A stretch of 64,000 nt of DNA, taken from the NCBI RefSeq assembly GCF_016756315.1, contig NZ_AP024235.1, forward strand, positions 2,666,001 through 2,730,000, read 5' to 3'. Origin of the DNA: Alteromonas sp. KC3 (GTDB lineage: Bacteria > Pseudomonadota > Gammaproteobacteria > Enterobacterales > Alteromonadaceae). Position 1 is the first letter of the stretch. Each line of letters starts with the position of its first letter. The notes below the pieces were generated by a model, which was not told the origin of the DNA, did no database searches, and worked only from the letters and a program-made list of their open reading frames with translations. Of the stretch, positions 56,907 through 62,603 are shown piece by piece. The position numbers were made by a program, and so were the translations under genes.

Positions 56907-57791
56907 TTATTGAAACGGCACCTGTTGCCCGATATAGCCAGGTGCAATGGCCAAATTATCTGTGTTAGCAAGCGAGCTCTGATTGCGCAACCACAGCTGA
57001 TACTCCCCCGTTTTCAAGCTGGCGTGTTTGGTACAGTCTACATTCCAACGGCGTAATAGGTATCCCGCCATTGCAGCACGTACTTGCAAAGTCAATACCC
57101 CCTCTTCCATCGCATAATCTAATTCTATCGCCGTAGGAAATTTTATATTCTTGGGGTGCGGTACAATTTCTAGTGGAATTAAGCGCTGCCACTGCTCATC
57201 ACAGTCAATACATTCATGAGGCTCTGGCGCGGATTTAACGGTAACTTTACTGATGCGCGTTAATACAAAATCTCTAAAGCTCTGCGATTTTCTATCAAAT
57301 GCTCTAACATGCCACCGTTGTCCGTTATCAACAATGCTGTGAGGAACTATCTCTCGTGCGCCGCTACCACTGGAAAGTGACGTATAGATAATGCTAATAG
57401 CCTTTTGATTAACTATGGCCTGAACAACCTTAGCAACAACAAAAATGTCTGGTACGTTTAATGACGACGCGCTCTCCACAGGAAAGTGAATATCACCGAT
57501 AGCGTCGAAACCATCCGATATATCATTAGCCAGCTTAACGAGCGTACGCCTAGCGTCATGTTCAAATAAGGGAGAGTAAGTCTCGGTTTGAAAATACCGT
57601 TTCTCTCGCGGATCATAAATCAGGTTATCCGGTGCTAATTCTTTGTATAGTGTGAAATCTCGCGACCCCGCAGATAACCCTACTTGAAACCGGTTGATGA
57701 GATCCTGACGATGGATAGCACCTTTAAACAAAAGGCAAAAATCGATATACGCCAAACGCTGGCGTTGTGAAAATGAAATTGAATCTAACAT
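56907..57791 (-). CDS. WYL-domain transcriptional regulator of BrxR/CapW type
   Basis: A 294-residue protein from ATG 57791. The N-terminal winged helix reads SQRQRLAYIDFCLLFKGAIHR, followed by FQVGLSAGSRDFTLYKELAP, then NLIYDPREKRYFQ. The WYL domain (~125-200) has ISIIYTSLSSGSGAREIVPHSIVDNGQRWHVRAFD and RDFVLTRI, and a WCX-type C-terminus ends it. This is the layout of BrxR/CapW regulators, which repress BREX and CBASS anti-phage systems. No defence genes lie beside it here, so its targets are open. A longer start at 57917 adds a poor 42-residue N-terminus and is not used. Confidence 0.75.
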   Translation of the reverse strand: MLDSISFSQRQRLAYIDFCLLFKGAIHRQDLINRFQVGLSAGSRDFTLYKELAPDNLIYDPREKRYFQTETYSPLFEHDARRTLVKLANDISDGFDAIGDIHFPVESASSLNVPDIFVVAKVVQAIVNQKAISIIYTSLSSGSGAREIVPHSIVDNGQRWHVRAFDRKSQSFRDFVLTRISKVTVKSAPEPHECIDCDEQWQRLIPLEIVPHPKNIKFPTAIELDYAMEEGVLTLQVRAAMAGYLLRRWNVDCTKHASLKTGEYQLWLRNQSSLANTDNLAIAPGYIGQQVPFQ

Positions 57792-57890
57792 ACAAAGCGC
57801 TGGTTGTTTTTCTTCAGTGTGGTTTATTTTAAGTCGTATGTAAATAGTGGTTTTCAACTTGGCGCACATTTTCTTAGCGTTTATCAGCTT

Positions 57891-57927
57891 AAAAAAAAGC
57901 CCGGTGCTTGTTATCAAGCCACCGGGC
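57891..57927 (-). terminator. Terminator after the PEP-CTERM gene
   Basis: AGCCCGGTG pairs with CACCGGGCT with an inner CTTG/CAAG pair, followed on the minus strand by T8. Confidence 0.9.
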
Positions 57928-57949: not shown

Positions 57950-58549
57950 TTATTTTGCATTTTGCTTACGGCTATACACCAATGCAGCCAAACCTAGCAG
58001 TGCCAGTATTCCTGTGCTTGGCGCAGGAACCTGACTTACAGTAAAGCGCGCAGTTTCAACATCAGCAGTTTGAGTAGAGCCCAAAGCAGCATCAAAAAAA
58101 TCGCTTTGCGTAAAACTAAACGCGTCGATGTTATCGCCCGCAGCAGTAGCAATAAACTGTAACGTATACAAGCCTACCGTTGTCATACCCGATTGGAAAA
58201 ACGGATTTGCCATCGGAGAAGCAATTGAAGAACCTGATACCATATTCCCTGTAACGCTACCGGCAAATAGCTCAGATGGAAATATGCCAGGCGCCATAGA
58301 AGGGCCAAACGCCATTAAACTAGTTAGGCTTGGCTCAACTGCACTGAGTACACTTGAATCAAAGTTGAATGCCGTTACATATGACGAAAAGAATGTTTGC
58401 GTGCCGTTTTCAACTAAGCCAGTCAAACTCACTGTCACGCTAATGGTGTCACCCACGTTATATTCAGTTTTGTCAGTAGTCAGTGTGATAAATGCAGCGT
58501 TTGCATTAAATGTCATTGCTGCCAAAAATACTAAAATAAGCTTTTTCAT
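57950..58549 (-). CDS. Exported cohesin-like protein with PEP-CTERM-type sorting tail
   Basis: A 199-residue exported protein. The signal peptide is residues 1-18 (MKKLILVFLAAMTFNANA). Residues ~20-165 have a cohesin-like pattern: DKTEYNVGDTISVTVSLTGL, then AFNFDSSVLSAVEP, and later VGLYTLQFIATAAGDNIDAF. The C-terminus is VPAPSTGILALLGLAALVYS followed by RKQNAK, which is the Pro-x-Pro, hydrophobic helix and basic end of the PEP-CTERM class, normally handled by an exosortase. None is in the window. ATG 58549 lies 16 bases after the stop of the dockerin-bearing nuclease gene. The cohesin call is by pattern only and needs a profile search; many PEP-CTERM proteins have such domains with unknown partners. 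Confidence 0.65.
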   Translation of the reverse strand: MKKLILVFLAAMTFNANAAFITLTTDKTEYNVGDTISVTVSLTGLVENGTQTFFSSYVTAFNFDSSVLSAVEPSLTSLMAFGPSMAPGIFPSELFAGSVTGNMVSGSSIASPMANPFFQSGMTTVGLYTLQFIATAAGDNIDAFSFTQSDFFDAALGSTQTADVETARFTVSQVPAPSTGILALLGLAALVYSRKQNAK

Positions 58550-58565
58550 TATGTTTTTCCAAAAA

Positions 58566-61500
58566 TTAAATTGCACAACCAGCGCGCGAGCACATGCCCA
58601 TCAGCGCTTGAATATCAAAGAAGTTAACCATACCGTCGCCGTTAAAATCGTAGCTCGCATCAGTCGCTTGACCAGATAAGAAGGCTTGGTAAAACGCCAT
58701 AATGTCGTTGTAATCAACGTCGTTATCACCATCTAAATCACCCACTACTACCTCTTCAGGGAAGTTCATCACTACCACTACAGGGTCGTGATCAGAAGAG
58801 CGATAAGCGTCCGCGCCGTAGTAGCTAGCAAGTTGCGTTTCCGATTTAAATTCAACGTTGTAGTCAAATACGCGAGGCTCATCAGCATTGATATGCCACA
58901 CTGATGTGTCAACGACATACTCAGTTAGCGTGCCGCTTGTTAGTGCATGGTCTAGGTAACCCATTTCACCGCCAAAGCTATACGAGTAAGCATTAGCGCC
59001 TACAAACTGATTAACAACGTTGGTATAACCTGCTGCTTCCAATGCCAAAATTGGAGACTCTTTCGCGTAAGCATTCAAATCGCCCATAATCAGTACGCGG
59101 TCTGAAAGCACTTCGCTGTTTGCTTCAATAAGTGCCAATAAACCTTGTGCTGCTTCGGTACGAAGTGCATTCCAGCAACCTTGACCATCACCTAAATCGG
59201 CGTTGTCACCTGTAGCGCTGCCACAGCTTCCTTTCGACTTAAAGTGGTTGATAGCAAAAGCAAAGCTTTCGCCGTTACTGTTTACGCTGAAGTTTTGAAT
59301 AAGTGGTTGTCTATTGCCGTAATCAAAAGGCGCAGCATTTGAGGTAATTGGATTACCGACAGGCGTAACGACCGCTTGCTTGTATAGCATGCCTACCGCA
59401 ATAGCATCGCCACCTAATAGCGACTCAAGTGCCACATAAGCATATTCATCACTACCCAACTCGGCATTTACGCTATCGACAAGTGTCGCTATCGCTGAGT
59501 CATTGCCATAACCGTCGTTTTCAATCTCAACAAGACCTAAAACATCAGCGTTCATAGCAACAATAGCGGCAACCGTTTTCGCATTTTGACGGTTGAACTC
59601 TAGCTCACTATCAGCACCGCGAGACGTTGGGAACTCTGGGCCATTGAAGTAGTTAAGCACGTTAAAGCTTGCTACTTTCACGTCGCCTTGTGCACGTAAA
59701 ATTGGCGCGCGTGTTCTTGGATTAGTGCGGGTGGTCTGCAAATCACCTACAGGGATAAGATTATACGCACCGAACGCGTAGTGTAGTACGCCTTCTAAGC
59801 TTTCAACGCTATCACCTAAACGAAGCGAATTAGTATGAGAAAGACCACCCACCGGGAATTCAAGACCATCGCGGTTTTGCGAGCTGTATCCATCGTCAAC
59901 CAAAAGTGAATCTACTGCGTTTTGCGCAGCCAATGCCAGCGCCGCTTCAGAATTTGCTTCATATTGGTTTGTTGGGATCATTAAACGCTGCGATGAAACA
60001 GTGAATTGACCGTAACGGCCTAAGTTGTATATATCTGAAACCTTTAGAGTTTGCTCGAAGCTAATTTGCATACCTTCAAAGGCTTCCAGATCCACTTCTG
60101 CGTTCAGTGGCAATGACAACGTTGAATACAGTACGCTTTCACCAGCGCCCAGTACCTCGGCATTTGCAGTAAGCGTTAATTGAGTAACACCATAGCGCTC
60201 GCCAACTGTCGCATTTAAGCGAACTGCATCGCCAGCTTGTGGCATCTCGTTGTATGCGCCGACGTAAACGAAAACACCTTCTGAAGTAGCGGTATTGTCA
60301 TCAGAGTCACTGGCTTCTTCTTGTACAAAGAAGCCATCCATACCTGGTACAACTTTAGTAACTACTGCCTCTACAACTACGTCGCTTCCAACTAGCTCAG
60401 ACGCTGCAGACGCTCCCTGGATAGCGCTGATAAGCACTACTTCAGGTACTGGGTCAGTAGGATCTGTTGGGTCTGTTGGGTCTGTTGGGTCTGTTGGACC
60501 GCTAACATTACCGTTATGGGCACCAAAATTGCTGAATGTATTTTGCGCGAAGCTGTCCCACTCAACACTTGCATCGAAGCTTCCACTACGCGACGTGTTA
60601 CCGCCGGTTACAGTGCTTTTACGCACTAACGTTACGTCTTTACCCCAATTAGTTCTAACGCCAAACGTCCCTAGAGAGTCCACAACGTCGCCGTTGTACG
60701 TCAACTCTATGTAGTCATCGCCGTTAAAATTGATAACAAAATCACTAATGGTCGAGCCAGAAGTAAGTGATGCATCAGCCTGGCTGTTAGCAAATGTCGC
60801 CACGCCACCTGACGGTATTGAGCCTTCTAAGGCAAGTACTTTGCCGTCATTTTCACCTGAGGCGCCGTTTGAAAACAGTACTAACGAGTAACCAGAAAGG
60901 TCGACAGCTTCAGCACTGCTATTGAACAGTTCAATCGCTTTGTTGAAACTACTTCCCTCGATGTACTCAGAAATGTAAACACTGTGAGATGAAGGCGGTG
61001 TATTTCCACCAGTATCGCCACCTGTGTCACCGCCAGTATCGCCACCTGTGTCGCCGCCAGTATCAACGCCAGTATCACCGCCAGTGTCGCCACCTGTATC
61101 AGTACCGCTGCCATCACAGCTCTCATTATATATAAGCGATGCAAGCTCAGGTTTATCAATAAATGGGTTGCGGTTTCCTTGGAATTCGAAAACGCGCTCG
61201 TTACGACGTCGCTCAAAGTCATCTACAGGATCACTTTCATGCCATTGTAGTAACACGCACAATTTACCGAAAGCGGCTTCTTCCGTCGTAGTTAAACGGT
61301 TTAGAAGTACGAGGTCTTCCTCAGTATCGCCAGCCGTATTTCCATCATAGCGCACATCCATATAAAGCATTGAACGGGCAACATCCCCTTTCACCGCATC
61401 ACGAGGTTCAAAAGAATCATTGTCAACGCGGTTAGCTGGCGCTTCGCTTAACGGACTATCACTGAAATCAAAATCGAGATTACCACGAGAACTATTGACC

Positions 61501-62603
61501 GAAATGTCAGTAGGACGCAAATGTAGAATATCTGTGTACGCCGTTAGGCTCGAGCTAGAGAAACCATGGCTTTTCGCCCACACATGTTCGCGGTTCCAAT
61601 TGTCTGGATTTGAGCTTTGTGTACCGCTTCCATTTGTTGACTTAGCTTGAGAAACACCCTTATAGAACAACACAACATTATCGGTATTTGCAGGGTCTTC
61701 ATCGGTATAAGTAAGTGCTGTCCATACTTCAGAATAGCTAAGTGTGCGATGACCGTTTTCAATAATATCGTGAGCCGCTGCTTTAAGAGTGACCGCATTC
61801 TCATTATTAGCAATTGCAGTTTCTAGCGCTGCATAATAGTCTGACTCAACATAATCGCTGGCTAAATTAATTGCTTGTAAATCGGGGCAATTGAAGCACG
61901 TGCCAGACAAGAAAAGAAGCTCATTTGATGGGCTATCACCCTCATCAGGCGTATCACCACCAGTATCGCCCCCAGTTGAACCTGACGCTGTTACTTTAAC
62001 GCTGTCTAGGTTTGAATATTCGCTACCAGCATTGTTTGCCATAGCGACTTTGATTACGAGTGAAGCGCCAGAACCTATGTTGGCAGTTACTAATGCACTA
62101 CCAAAATCATCGAATACTGTTCTGCTGTCGCCTTCGTTTAAGGTTACTAATTCAAAAGCGCCACCGTCTATCGCGTACGACACGTCGATGTAATCAGCAT
62201 TTTCAAAAGTACCACTTTGAGAAAGCGCTACTTCTAACGTAATGTCGCCCTGACCACTAATATCAATTGTCTCGGTCTGCCATACAACGTCACCGTCAAC
62301 ATCACGTGCCTGCATAGCATTGTTGTTTACTTTGAACCAATCGCTTGTAGCGGTAATTTGTGCGCCGCTAACGTCAATTGACCAACGTTCAACACCGTCA
62401 ACTACAACATTTTGGCCTACAGGAATTGGGCCTGTTGCTCCTTTACCCTGAAGTTCAGCGGCTTCAAAGTTTTCTTCCCATAGCGTGGTAGCCGCGGCGT
62501 TAAAAGAGAGAACACTGAGTGAAAAAGCGCCGGTGAGAAGCGCATTGACGACTTTTGCCGTCTTTCTCAGTGAGAGGTTGTGTGTGTTATTCTGGATAGT
62601 CAT
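58566..62603 (-). CDS. Giant exported double nuclease (endonuclease I plus ExeM/NucH-type) with dockerin-like C-terminus
   Basis: A 1345-residue secreted protein. The signal peptide is at ~17-38. Residues ~40-205 are a beta-sandwich. Residues ~228-495 hold an endonuclease I domain with NWNREHVWAKSHGF (His340) and DILHLRPTDISVNSSRGN. A Gly-Gly-Asp-Thr repeat linker (~502-533) follows, then a lamin-tail-like domain (~540-690, SVYISEYIEGSS and KAIELFN). An Asp-Pro-Thr repeat leads to an OB-like domain and an EEP nuclease domain of ExeM/NucH type (VKVASFNVLNYFNGP, ENDGYGNDSA, MGDLNAYAKESP and SSDHDPVVV). The last 58 residues are two EF-hand loops, DLDGDNDVDYND and DFNGDGMVNFFD, as in type I dockerins. 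It would degrade extracellular DNA. ATG 62603 has GGAAG upstream. Confidence 0.85.
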   Translation of the reverse strand: MTIQNNTHNLSLRKTAKVVNALLTGAFSLSVLSFNAAATTLWEENFEAAELQGKGATGPIPVGQNVVVDGVERWSIDVSGAQITATSDWFKVNNNAMQARDVDGDVVWQTETIDISGQGDITLEVALSQSGTFENADYIDVSYAIDGGAFELVTLNEGDSRTVFDDFGSALVTANIGSGASLVIKVAMANNAGSEYSNLDSVKVTASGSTGGDTGGDTPDEGDSPSNELLFLSGTCFNCPDLQAINLASDYVESDYYAALETAIANNENAVTLKAAAHDIIENGHRTLSYSEVWTALTYTDEDPANTDNVVLFYKGVSQAKSTNGSGTQSSNPDNWNREHVWAKSHGFSSSSLTAYTDILHLRPTDISVNSSRGNLDFDFSDSPLSEAPANRVDNDSFEPRDAVKGDVARSMLYMDVRYDGNTAGDTEEDLVLLNRLTTTEEAAFGKLCVLLQWHESDPVDDFERRRNERVFEFQGNRNPFIDKPELASLIYNESCDGSGTDTGGDTGGDTGVDTGGDTGGDTGGDTGGDTGGNTPPSSHSVYISEYIEGSSFNKAIELFNSSAEAVDLSGYSLVLFSNGASGENDGKVLALEGSIPSGGVATFANSQADASLTSGSTISDFVINFNGDDYIELTYNGDVVDSLGTFGVRTNWGKDVTLVRKSTVTGGNTSRSGSFDASVEWDSFAQNTFSNFGAHNGNVSGPTDPTDPTDPTDPTDPVPEVVLISAIQGASAASELVGSDVVVEAVVTKVVPGMDGFFVQEEASDSDDNTATSEGVFVYVGAYNEMPQAGDAVRLNATVGERYGVTQLTLTANAEVLGAGESVLYSTLSLPLNAEVDLEAFEGMQISFEQTLKVSDIYNLGRYGQFTVSSQRLMIPTNQYEANSEAALALAAQNAVDSLLVDDGYSSQNRDGLEFPVGGLSHTNSLRLGDSVESLEGVLHYAFGAYNLIPVGDLQTTRTNPRTRAPILRAQGDVKVASFNVLNYFNGPEFPTSRGADSELEFNRQNAKTVAAIVAMNADVLGLVEIENDGYGNDSAIATLVDSVNAELGSDEYAYVALESLLGGDAIAVGMLYKQAVVTPVGNPITSNAAPFDYGNRQPLIQNFSVNSNGESFAFAINHFKSKGSCGSATGDNADLGDGQGCWNALRTEAAQGLLALIEANSEVLSDRVLIMGDLNAYAKESPILALEAAGYTNVVNQFVGANAYSYSFGGEMGYLDHALTSGTLTEYVVDTSVWHINADEPRVFDYNVEFKSETQLASYYGADAYRSSDHDPVVVVMNFPEEVVVGDLDGDNDVDYNDIMAFYQAFLSGQATDASYDFNGDGMVNFFDIQALMGMCSRAGCAI
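60451..60500. repeat. Nine-base tandem repeat encoding Thr-Asp-Pro linker
   Basis: Near-perfect copies of GGGTCTGTT in plus-strand sense, about five units, encode the (Asp-Pro-Thr)n linker before the OB/EEP part of the nuclease. The copy number may vary among strains. Confidence 0.8.
61006..61101. repeat. Twelve-base tandem repeat encoding Gly-Gly-Asp-Thr linker
   Basis: About eight degenerate 12-base units, alternating GTATCGCCACC and GTGTCACCGCC-like forms, encode the linker between the endonuclease I and lamin-tail domains. A shorter set lies near residue 210. Confidence 0.8.

Follow-up and report, generated by a model that had tools for sequence, protein, structure and literature searches.

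Does the small exported protein encoded directly behind a secreted nuclease of Alteromonas sp. KC3 serve as a dock that holds this enzyme at the cell? The locus lies in a 64,000-nucleotide stretch of the genome (contig NZ_AP024235.1, positions 2,666,001 to 2,730,000), hereafter the window. An initial annotation, made from the letters alone, had read the end of the nuclease as a dockerin and the next gene product as a cohesin-like protein with an exosortase-type tail, which together could form a one-cohesin display system for nucleic acid use. We found that the cassette is real and larger than first noted: a dockerin-bearing enzyme and a single-cohesin protein with a PEP-CTERM-type tail recur together in many genomes. 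We consider it likely that they form a two-part display cassette, in which an exoenzyme is tethered to an exosortase-sorted single-cohesin anchor, as a rule with one anchor per enzyme and with co-adapted partners. The arrangement probably points to an overlooked means by which cells keep hold of their secreted enzymes.

The two genes follow each other on the minus strand, the nuclease open reading frame (ORF) first and the small ORF 16 bp behind it, and the coordinates given initially were right. The nuclease scored 618 bits against the ExeM/NucH model NF033681 (cut-off 300) and 432 bits against NF033680, the model of the GlyGly-CTERM form ExeM-GG (cut-off 1300); its own C-terminus is a dockerin, and it has an added endonuclease I domain and a lamin tail domain (Table 1). 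The dockerin-type loops that had been pointed out at this end were borne out by PF00404 (Dockerin_1), which matched the tail at 7e-5 with 23.4 bits (cut-off 22.9), and a simple calcium-loop pattern, applied to the whole 1345-aa protein, picks out just these loops, DLDGDNDVDYND and DFNGDGMVNFFD. When the tail was compared with the PDB by phmmer, the top two chains, at 4e-4 and with no individual stretch that passed, were EF-hand calcium-binding proteins, followed by the dockerin 6kge (0.0019), aligned over its length. The AlphaFold2 model of the tail was of low confidence (predicted local distance difference test 65.5), and rows 1-19 of its 30 Foldseek rows were dockerins or cohesin-dockerin entries, at E >= 0.25.

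For the small protein, PF00963 (Cohesin) gave 22.6 bits (1.3e-4, profile positions 2-51 of 139), slightly below the cut-off of 24.1, and the best solved match by sequence alone was a cellulosomal scaffoldin at E 0.019; these two results alone would leave its cohesin identity unproven. It is settled by the fold and by the family profile. The predicted model has the beta-sandwich fold of cohesins, its best structural matches being cohesins of Clostridium perfringens, and the matches include OlpA, OlpC and autonomous cohesins of Ruminococcus flavefaciens (3ul4, 4dh2, 4wkz, 4n2o) as well as the Archaeoglobus cohesin 2xdh. Family profile A4, which holds one cohesin per 55%-identity group (8 of 73 were dropped as doubtful or badly started), retrieved solved cohesins from the PDB, the best at 5.4e-17. 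The cohesin-like pattern described initially is thus supported, though the protein's own Pfam score is below the cut-off; among its relatives, 24 of 65 match PF00963 at E <= 0.01. The only names that databases give to these relatives are 'hypothetical protein', 'PEP-CTERM sorting domain-containing protein', 'cohesin domain-containing protein' and 'MYXO-CTERM domain-containing protein'. The host genome (4.56 Mb) contains one cohesin match and one dockerin match, and since these single matches are neighbours, the pair goes beyond chance. We also considered a cellulosome and rejected it: the only cohesin match of the genome lies in a 199-aa protein, and the sole dockerin match is on a nuclease, not on a plant cell wall enzyme.

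The tail of the small protein has, by eye, the architecture of an exosortase substrate, with VPAPS, a helix at residues 179-197 in the model, RKQNAK and, at the other end, a signal peptide; a hydrophobic window lies at residue 176. PF07589 matched it at 1.3e-3 with 19.2 bits, slightly below the cut-off of 20.7, and TIGR02595 gave 13.7, below the cut-off of 16, while among full-length relatives 34 of 65 matched PF07589 at E <= 0.01 and 31 of 65 matched TIGR02595. The exosortase-type tail proposed initially fits this architecture and the presence of XrtA, the one exosortase match of the host genome (274 bits, cut-off 208). The neighbours of XrtA are polysaccharide genes of the XrtA system, with TIGR03006, TIGR03013 and TIGR03027 above cut-off and TIGR03108 at 759 of 817 bits.

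The operon pairing turned out to be conserved, more strongly than the initial annotation could know. Searching 246 related genomes with A4, a profile built mostly from cohesins beside dockerins, with most loci fetched for their dockerin matches, we found 130 cohesin sites in 86 genomes, and at 124 of them a same-strand dockerin gene lay within two genes. An exosortase is present in 85 of the 86 cohesin-positive and in 71 of the 160 cohesin-negative genomes, counts that are uncorrected for shared ancestry. In the 124 pairs the dockerin gene is directly upstream in 111, directly downstream in seven and two genes downstream in six; the dockerin match ends at most 45 residues from the C-terminus in 117 (in the other seven the best match is not C-terminal), and the cohesin ORF is 160-245 aa long. 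The gap in the 111 pairs with an upstream dockerin has a median of 21 bp and is at most 60 bp in 91. Pairs occur in 83 genomes, one in each of 52, two in 21 and three in ten. At 24 of the 27 loci fetched only for their cohesin (L191-L217) a dockerin is encoded next door, C-terminal in 21 of them; the remaining three lack such a neighbour. At the six cohesin sites where no dockerin gene is shown, one runs into a contig end (G046), one is a stop-containing fragment (G029), one lost its ORF in filtering (G123), and at three none was seen within the fetched stretch (G092, G163, G190). The G029 fragment (G029:C21:41616-41825) is a weak profile match with four internal stops about 21 kb from the intact cohesin gene; it is possibly a second copy that has decayed. 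At six loci (L046, L047, L048, L135, L140, L158) the order is reversed, with the dockerin protein encoded two genes after the cohesin; L047, which represents them, carries a von Willebrand A domain. A C-x4-C motif (e.g., CTRxxCA), possibly a tail-closing disulphide, is found within the last 30 residues of 105 of the 124 paired dockerin proteins.

Counted from the dockerin side, 76 of 126 loci have a cohesin as the next gene, 13 have one nearby and 37 have none; these counts are not independent, as the dockerin and cohesin hidden Markov models (HMMs) were built from the same neighbourhoods, and they relied on an earlier cohesin HMM that includes the signal and PEP tail and may match other PEP-CTERM proteins (three cases). 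Some of the 37 are unlike real C-terminal dockerins, and three PF00404 matches on short contigs or frames (G136:C797, G086:C126, G129:C460) were left out. Wider afield, 33 genomes of a class-wide sample of 350 have a cohesin match, three of which are genomes of the own family already counted. At 17 of the sample's other sites, viewed with 1.5-kb flanks, a dockerin match lies in a neighbouring ORF at eight (L252, L254, L255, L257, L258, L262, L263, L268) and shares the ORF of the cohesin at two (L264, L266), and no dockerin was seen within these flanks at seven (L259, L260, L261, L265, L267, L269, L270). Outside the family, L266 has cohesin and dockerin matches within the same ORFs, and L268 has two tandem single-cohesin genes after its dockerin ORF. 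A scan of named genomes with the closer-row alignment A3 gave at least one locus, in Alteromonas antoniana, where a cohesin gene likewise follows the gene of a nuclease-domain protein; the tail of this protein is dockerin-like by eye and is not matched by the Pfam dockerin model.

The cargo of the dockerins is diverse. The 148 dockerin proteins fell into 23 single-linkage groups, to which cargo was assigned from one representative each. The largest is the nuclease group, with 83 proteins from 83 genomes, all of which match the ExeM core of our nuclease at E <= 1e-10, a threshold reached by no protein of the other 22 groups. Representatives paired with a cohesin carry BNR_4, porphyranase, M9 collagenase (two representatives), von Willebrand A, M4, M43, S8, PKD/PPC, CBM6, lambda-carrageenase, laminin-G-like, glucuronoyl esterase or IgGFc-binding domains, while for some the dockerin is the sole known domain, and some lack any known domain; a GH42-like dockerin protein (L084) is without a cohesin neighbour. 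These varied domains indicate that the tail-plus-anchor unit is combined with cargo of many kinds. On the same ground we rejected a dedicated nucleic-acid system, and the display for nucleic acid use proposed initially was too narrow, the same type of anchor accompanying proteases, algal polysaccharide enzymes, an esterase and others. ExeM itself is present in 175 of the 246 genomes, and of the best 30 ExeM loci 18 have a terminal dockerin. Among the 12 that lack it, some have a different C-terminal stretch and one stops right after the nuclease core. All 18 dockerin-ending loci are in genomes with an exosortase match, and seven of the 12 others are in genomes without one (G131, G076, G090, G232, G078, G101, G138).

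Cohesins and dockerins also diverge together. Across the 124 pairs their distances correlate at 0.574, compared with 0.322 +- 0.037 when cohesins were reassigned within genomes, the observed value being reached in none of 2000 trials. In the 31 genomes with several pairs alone, the correlation is 0.592 (reassigned, 0.141 +- 0.06; 0/2000), and in comparisons between different cargo only, with eight of the 124 pairs dropped as belonging to no group, it is 0.253 (reassigned, 0.087 +- 0.034; 0/2000). As far as sequence comparison goes, this matched divergence fits co-adapted partners.

In the display cassette that we propose, the nuclease would be exported, and its calcium-loaded C-terminal dockerin would plug into the one cohesin of its small neighbour. 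This neighbour in turn would be exported by its signal peptide, held by the PEP-CTERM-type helix and sorted by XrtA. The enzyme would thereby stay on the cell envelope or in the exopolysaccharide (EPS) and not diffuse away, and the displayed nuclease may break down extracellular DNA to gain nutrients or to remodel the matrix; many exoenzymes of the family would be displayed on the same plan. With less assurance we lean toward a general system, shared by the Alteromonas family and by scattered relatives elsewhere in the class, under which a secreted depolymerase would have a private exosortase-sorted single-cohesin anchor next door, in parallel pair-specific docks and with no scaffold. This leaning covers, jointly with the rest, two further parts: that the dockerin would replace the covalent sorting tail of other ExeM enzymes, making the display non-covalent and calcium-reversible, and that cargo could be exchanged by recombining enzymes onto the dock-anchor unit.

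The features of the locus are given in Table 1. The linkers of the nuclease at 61010-61110 and 60455-60500 consist of repeated GGDT and DPT units. The hairpin followed by eight T directly after the small gene suggests that the pair probably ends one transcript; this hairpin was not among the results of the pattern scan for terminators, and the scan for promoters and terminators showed no excess over shuffled sequences (5 vs. 8.3; 3 vs. 4.9). Beyond the hairpin, the next minus-strand ORF spans 56907-57917, and a similar ORF adjoins the cassette in many relatives of the same genus.

Table 1. Features of the nuclease-cohesin locus (positions in the window)
Feature	Position	Strand	Basis
ExeM/NucH-type extracellular nuclease with C-terminal dockerin, 1345 aa from ATG	58566..62603	-	ORF, NF033681, Pfam
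Putative Sec signal peptide of nuclease, residues ~1-38	62490..62603	-	By eye: basic N-region, hydrophobic stretch, FNAAA
Endonuclease I domain (PF04231, Endonuclease_1), residues 272-486	61146..61790	-	Pfam 7.2e-41
Lamin tail domain (PF00932, LTD), residues 537-646	60666..60995	-	Pfam 1.5e-13
Endonuclease/exonuclease/phosphatase domain (PF03372, Exo_endo_phos), residues 978-1272	58788..59672	-	Pfam 5.5e-10
Dockerin tail, residues 1288-1345: two calcium loops and closing C-x4-C	58569..58742	-	PF00404
First calcium loop DLDGDNDVDYND, residues 1289-1300	58704..58739	-	Simple calcium-loop pattern
Second calcium loop DFNGDGMVNFFD, residues 1319-1330	58614..58649	-	Simple calcium-loop pattern
Single-cohesin exported protein with PEP-CTERM-like tail, 199 aa from ATG	57950..58549	-	ORF, fold, family profile
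Putative signal peptide MKKLILVFLAAMTFNANAA, residues 1-19	58493..58549	-	By eye; strongest hydrophobic window at residue 5; conserved in alignment A1
Cohesin domain, residues ~20-172	58034..58492	-	
PEP-CTERM-like tail, residues 173-199: VPAPS, hydrophobic helix, RKQNAK	57953..58033	-	PF07589, model, hydrophobicity
Terminator-like hairpin, one-bulge stem, then eight T, directly 3' of cohesin gene	57891..57927	-	By eye

Several observations weigh against the display cassette as we read it. The small protein itself scores under the cut-offs of the Pfam cohesin and PEP-CTERM models alike, and it has PAP where the motif would read PEP. The matched divergence can also be explained by plain co-inheritance of neighbours that never touch, and a nearest-dockerin test came out near even (88/158). 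A cohesin neighbour accompanies 63 of the 83 dockerin nucleases and is absent from the other 20, of which 14 lie in genomes without any A4 match and six in genomes with one elsewhere. More broadly, 24 of 99 PF00404-positive genomes have no A4 cohesin, ten of them of the same genus, and five of the 12 ExeM loci that lack a dockerin are in genomes with an exosortase. In two genomes, G105 (L110, G105:C166) and G111 (L055 and L067, G111:C105), a single cohesin gene is flanked by two same-strand dockerin genes, so the pairing is not strictly one to one, and this cohesin is possibly a shared anchor; the gene upstream of it encodes a protein of the nuclease group, the one downstream an M9 collagenase in G105 and an S8 subtilase in G111. 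The initial annotation had suggested examining the co-occurrence of the genes and had counted against itself widespread genomes with either gene alone and without an exosortase. This counts against it in part: nucleases on their own do occur, all 20 of them in genomes that have an exosortase, and they may have lost the anchor or use another one. Cohesin sites at which no dockerin gene is shown are few (6/130). The 20 comprise L066, L075, L079, L080, L089, L092, L097, L119, L147, L157 and ten more; several adjoin a conserved gene (~586 aa), and in several the dockerin is followed by a basic extension.

Other explanations must be weighed against the display cassette. That the whole pattern is chance or an annotation artefact, built on loose beta-sandwich and EF-hand matches, could draw on the cohesin and PEP-CTERM scores of the protein, which are just under cut-off; the structural matches, the match of A4 to solved cohesins and the 124 of 130 paired sites led us to reject chance, and we regard this explanation as extremely improbable. 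It is also improbable, if less so, that the two proteins belong to the same process and do not bind each other, the dockerin being a calcium-stabilised tail and the cohesin-like protein acting elsewhere, e.g., in the exopolysaccharide matrix. The 20 orphan dockerin nucleases and the occurrence of cohesin-like folds outside docking would agree with this, but dockerins are the established ligands of the cohesin fold, cohesins stay beside a dockerin gene at 124 of 130 sites while the cargo changes completely, and divergence is matched even across cassettes of different cargo.

A further alternative accepts that the pair binds and places the small protein elsewhere, as a periplasmic or inner-membrane holding or export factor (a private chaperone or retention tether) and not as a surface anchor. 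The close pairing of the genes would suit such a factor, ExeM of Shewanella was found almost only with the inner membrane according to the available part of its description (PMC6085458), and a PEP-CTERM-type tail would, to judge from the accessible portion of another report (PMC3237569), put the protein in the inner membrane at least initially. Onward sorting is suggested, however, by the XrtA/EPS cluster of the host and by the presence of cohesins in only one of 90 exosortase-free genomes. Moreover, cargo such as porphyranase and lambda-carrageenase must meet its polymers outside the cell. We therefore think this alternative unlikely, although it is the least unlikely of the three.

If the display reading is true, it would explain how marine bacteria avoid losing nucleases, proteases and algal polysaccharide enzymes to the water, and it would supply a set of docking modules of Gram-negative origin that are paired by nature and possibly specific to their pair. 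To our knowledge, the purpose of PEP-CTERM proteins is largely open. A cassette with an obvious binding prediction at 124 sites makes the roles of cohesin and dockerin outside cellulosomes and those of PEP-CTERM proteins testable, and the general system, if true, would assign a concrete function to a large set of such cohesins and to some of the PEP-CTERM proteins.

How does this cassette compare with known systems? The single-cohesin anchors OlpA, OlpC and those of the ScaG type likewise hold a dockerin-bearing partner by one cohesin on a small surface protein. They are Gram-positive, use other means of anchoring and are part of cellulosomes, whereas here the host is Gram-negative, the tail is of the PEP-CTERM type and the anchor gene lies beside each enzyme gene; no multi-cohesin protein was found in the cohesin searches of the host genome. 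Cohesin-dockerin modules outside cellulose breakdown, as in NagJ/NagH of C. perfringens, the Archaeoglobus cohesin, ANME archaea and the planctosome, are alike in serving other ends. Going by the available sections of a review on ANME archaea, which mention exosortases and cohesins separately, it is not known what these modules do outside cellulosomes (PMC5244752), and a peptidase complex was proposed in the accessible part of a planctomycete paper (PMC6461901); a cassette of an enzyme and a PEP-CTERM cohesin is described in these parts of neither. A full-text search of the openly licensed literature also returned no description of a dockerin enzyme with a PEP-CTERM-cohesin partner. ExeM of Shewanella oneidensis (GlyGly-CTERM/rhombosortase) is of the same nuclease family; it is described as an extracellular DNase associated with the membrane that requires calcium together with magnesium or manganese, and it has its own C-terminal membrane helix and RRRR (PMC6085458). 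Here the nuclease ends in a dockerin, and a separate protein carries the membrane helix. With the PEP-CTERM/exosortase XrtA system the cassette shares the tail architecture and an XrtA accompanied by the EPS gene set. In the usual picture of that system the PEP-CTERM proteins are themselves the cargo, whereas here the sorted protein would be the carrier for another enzyme.

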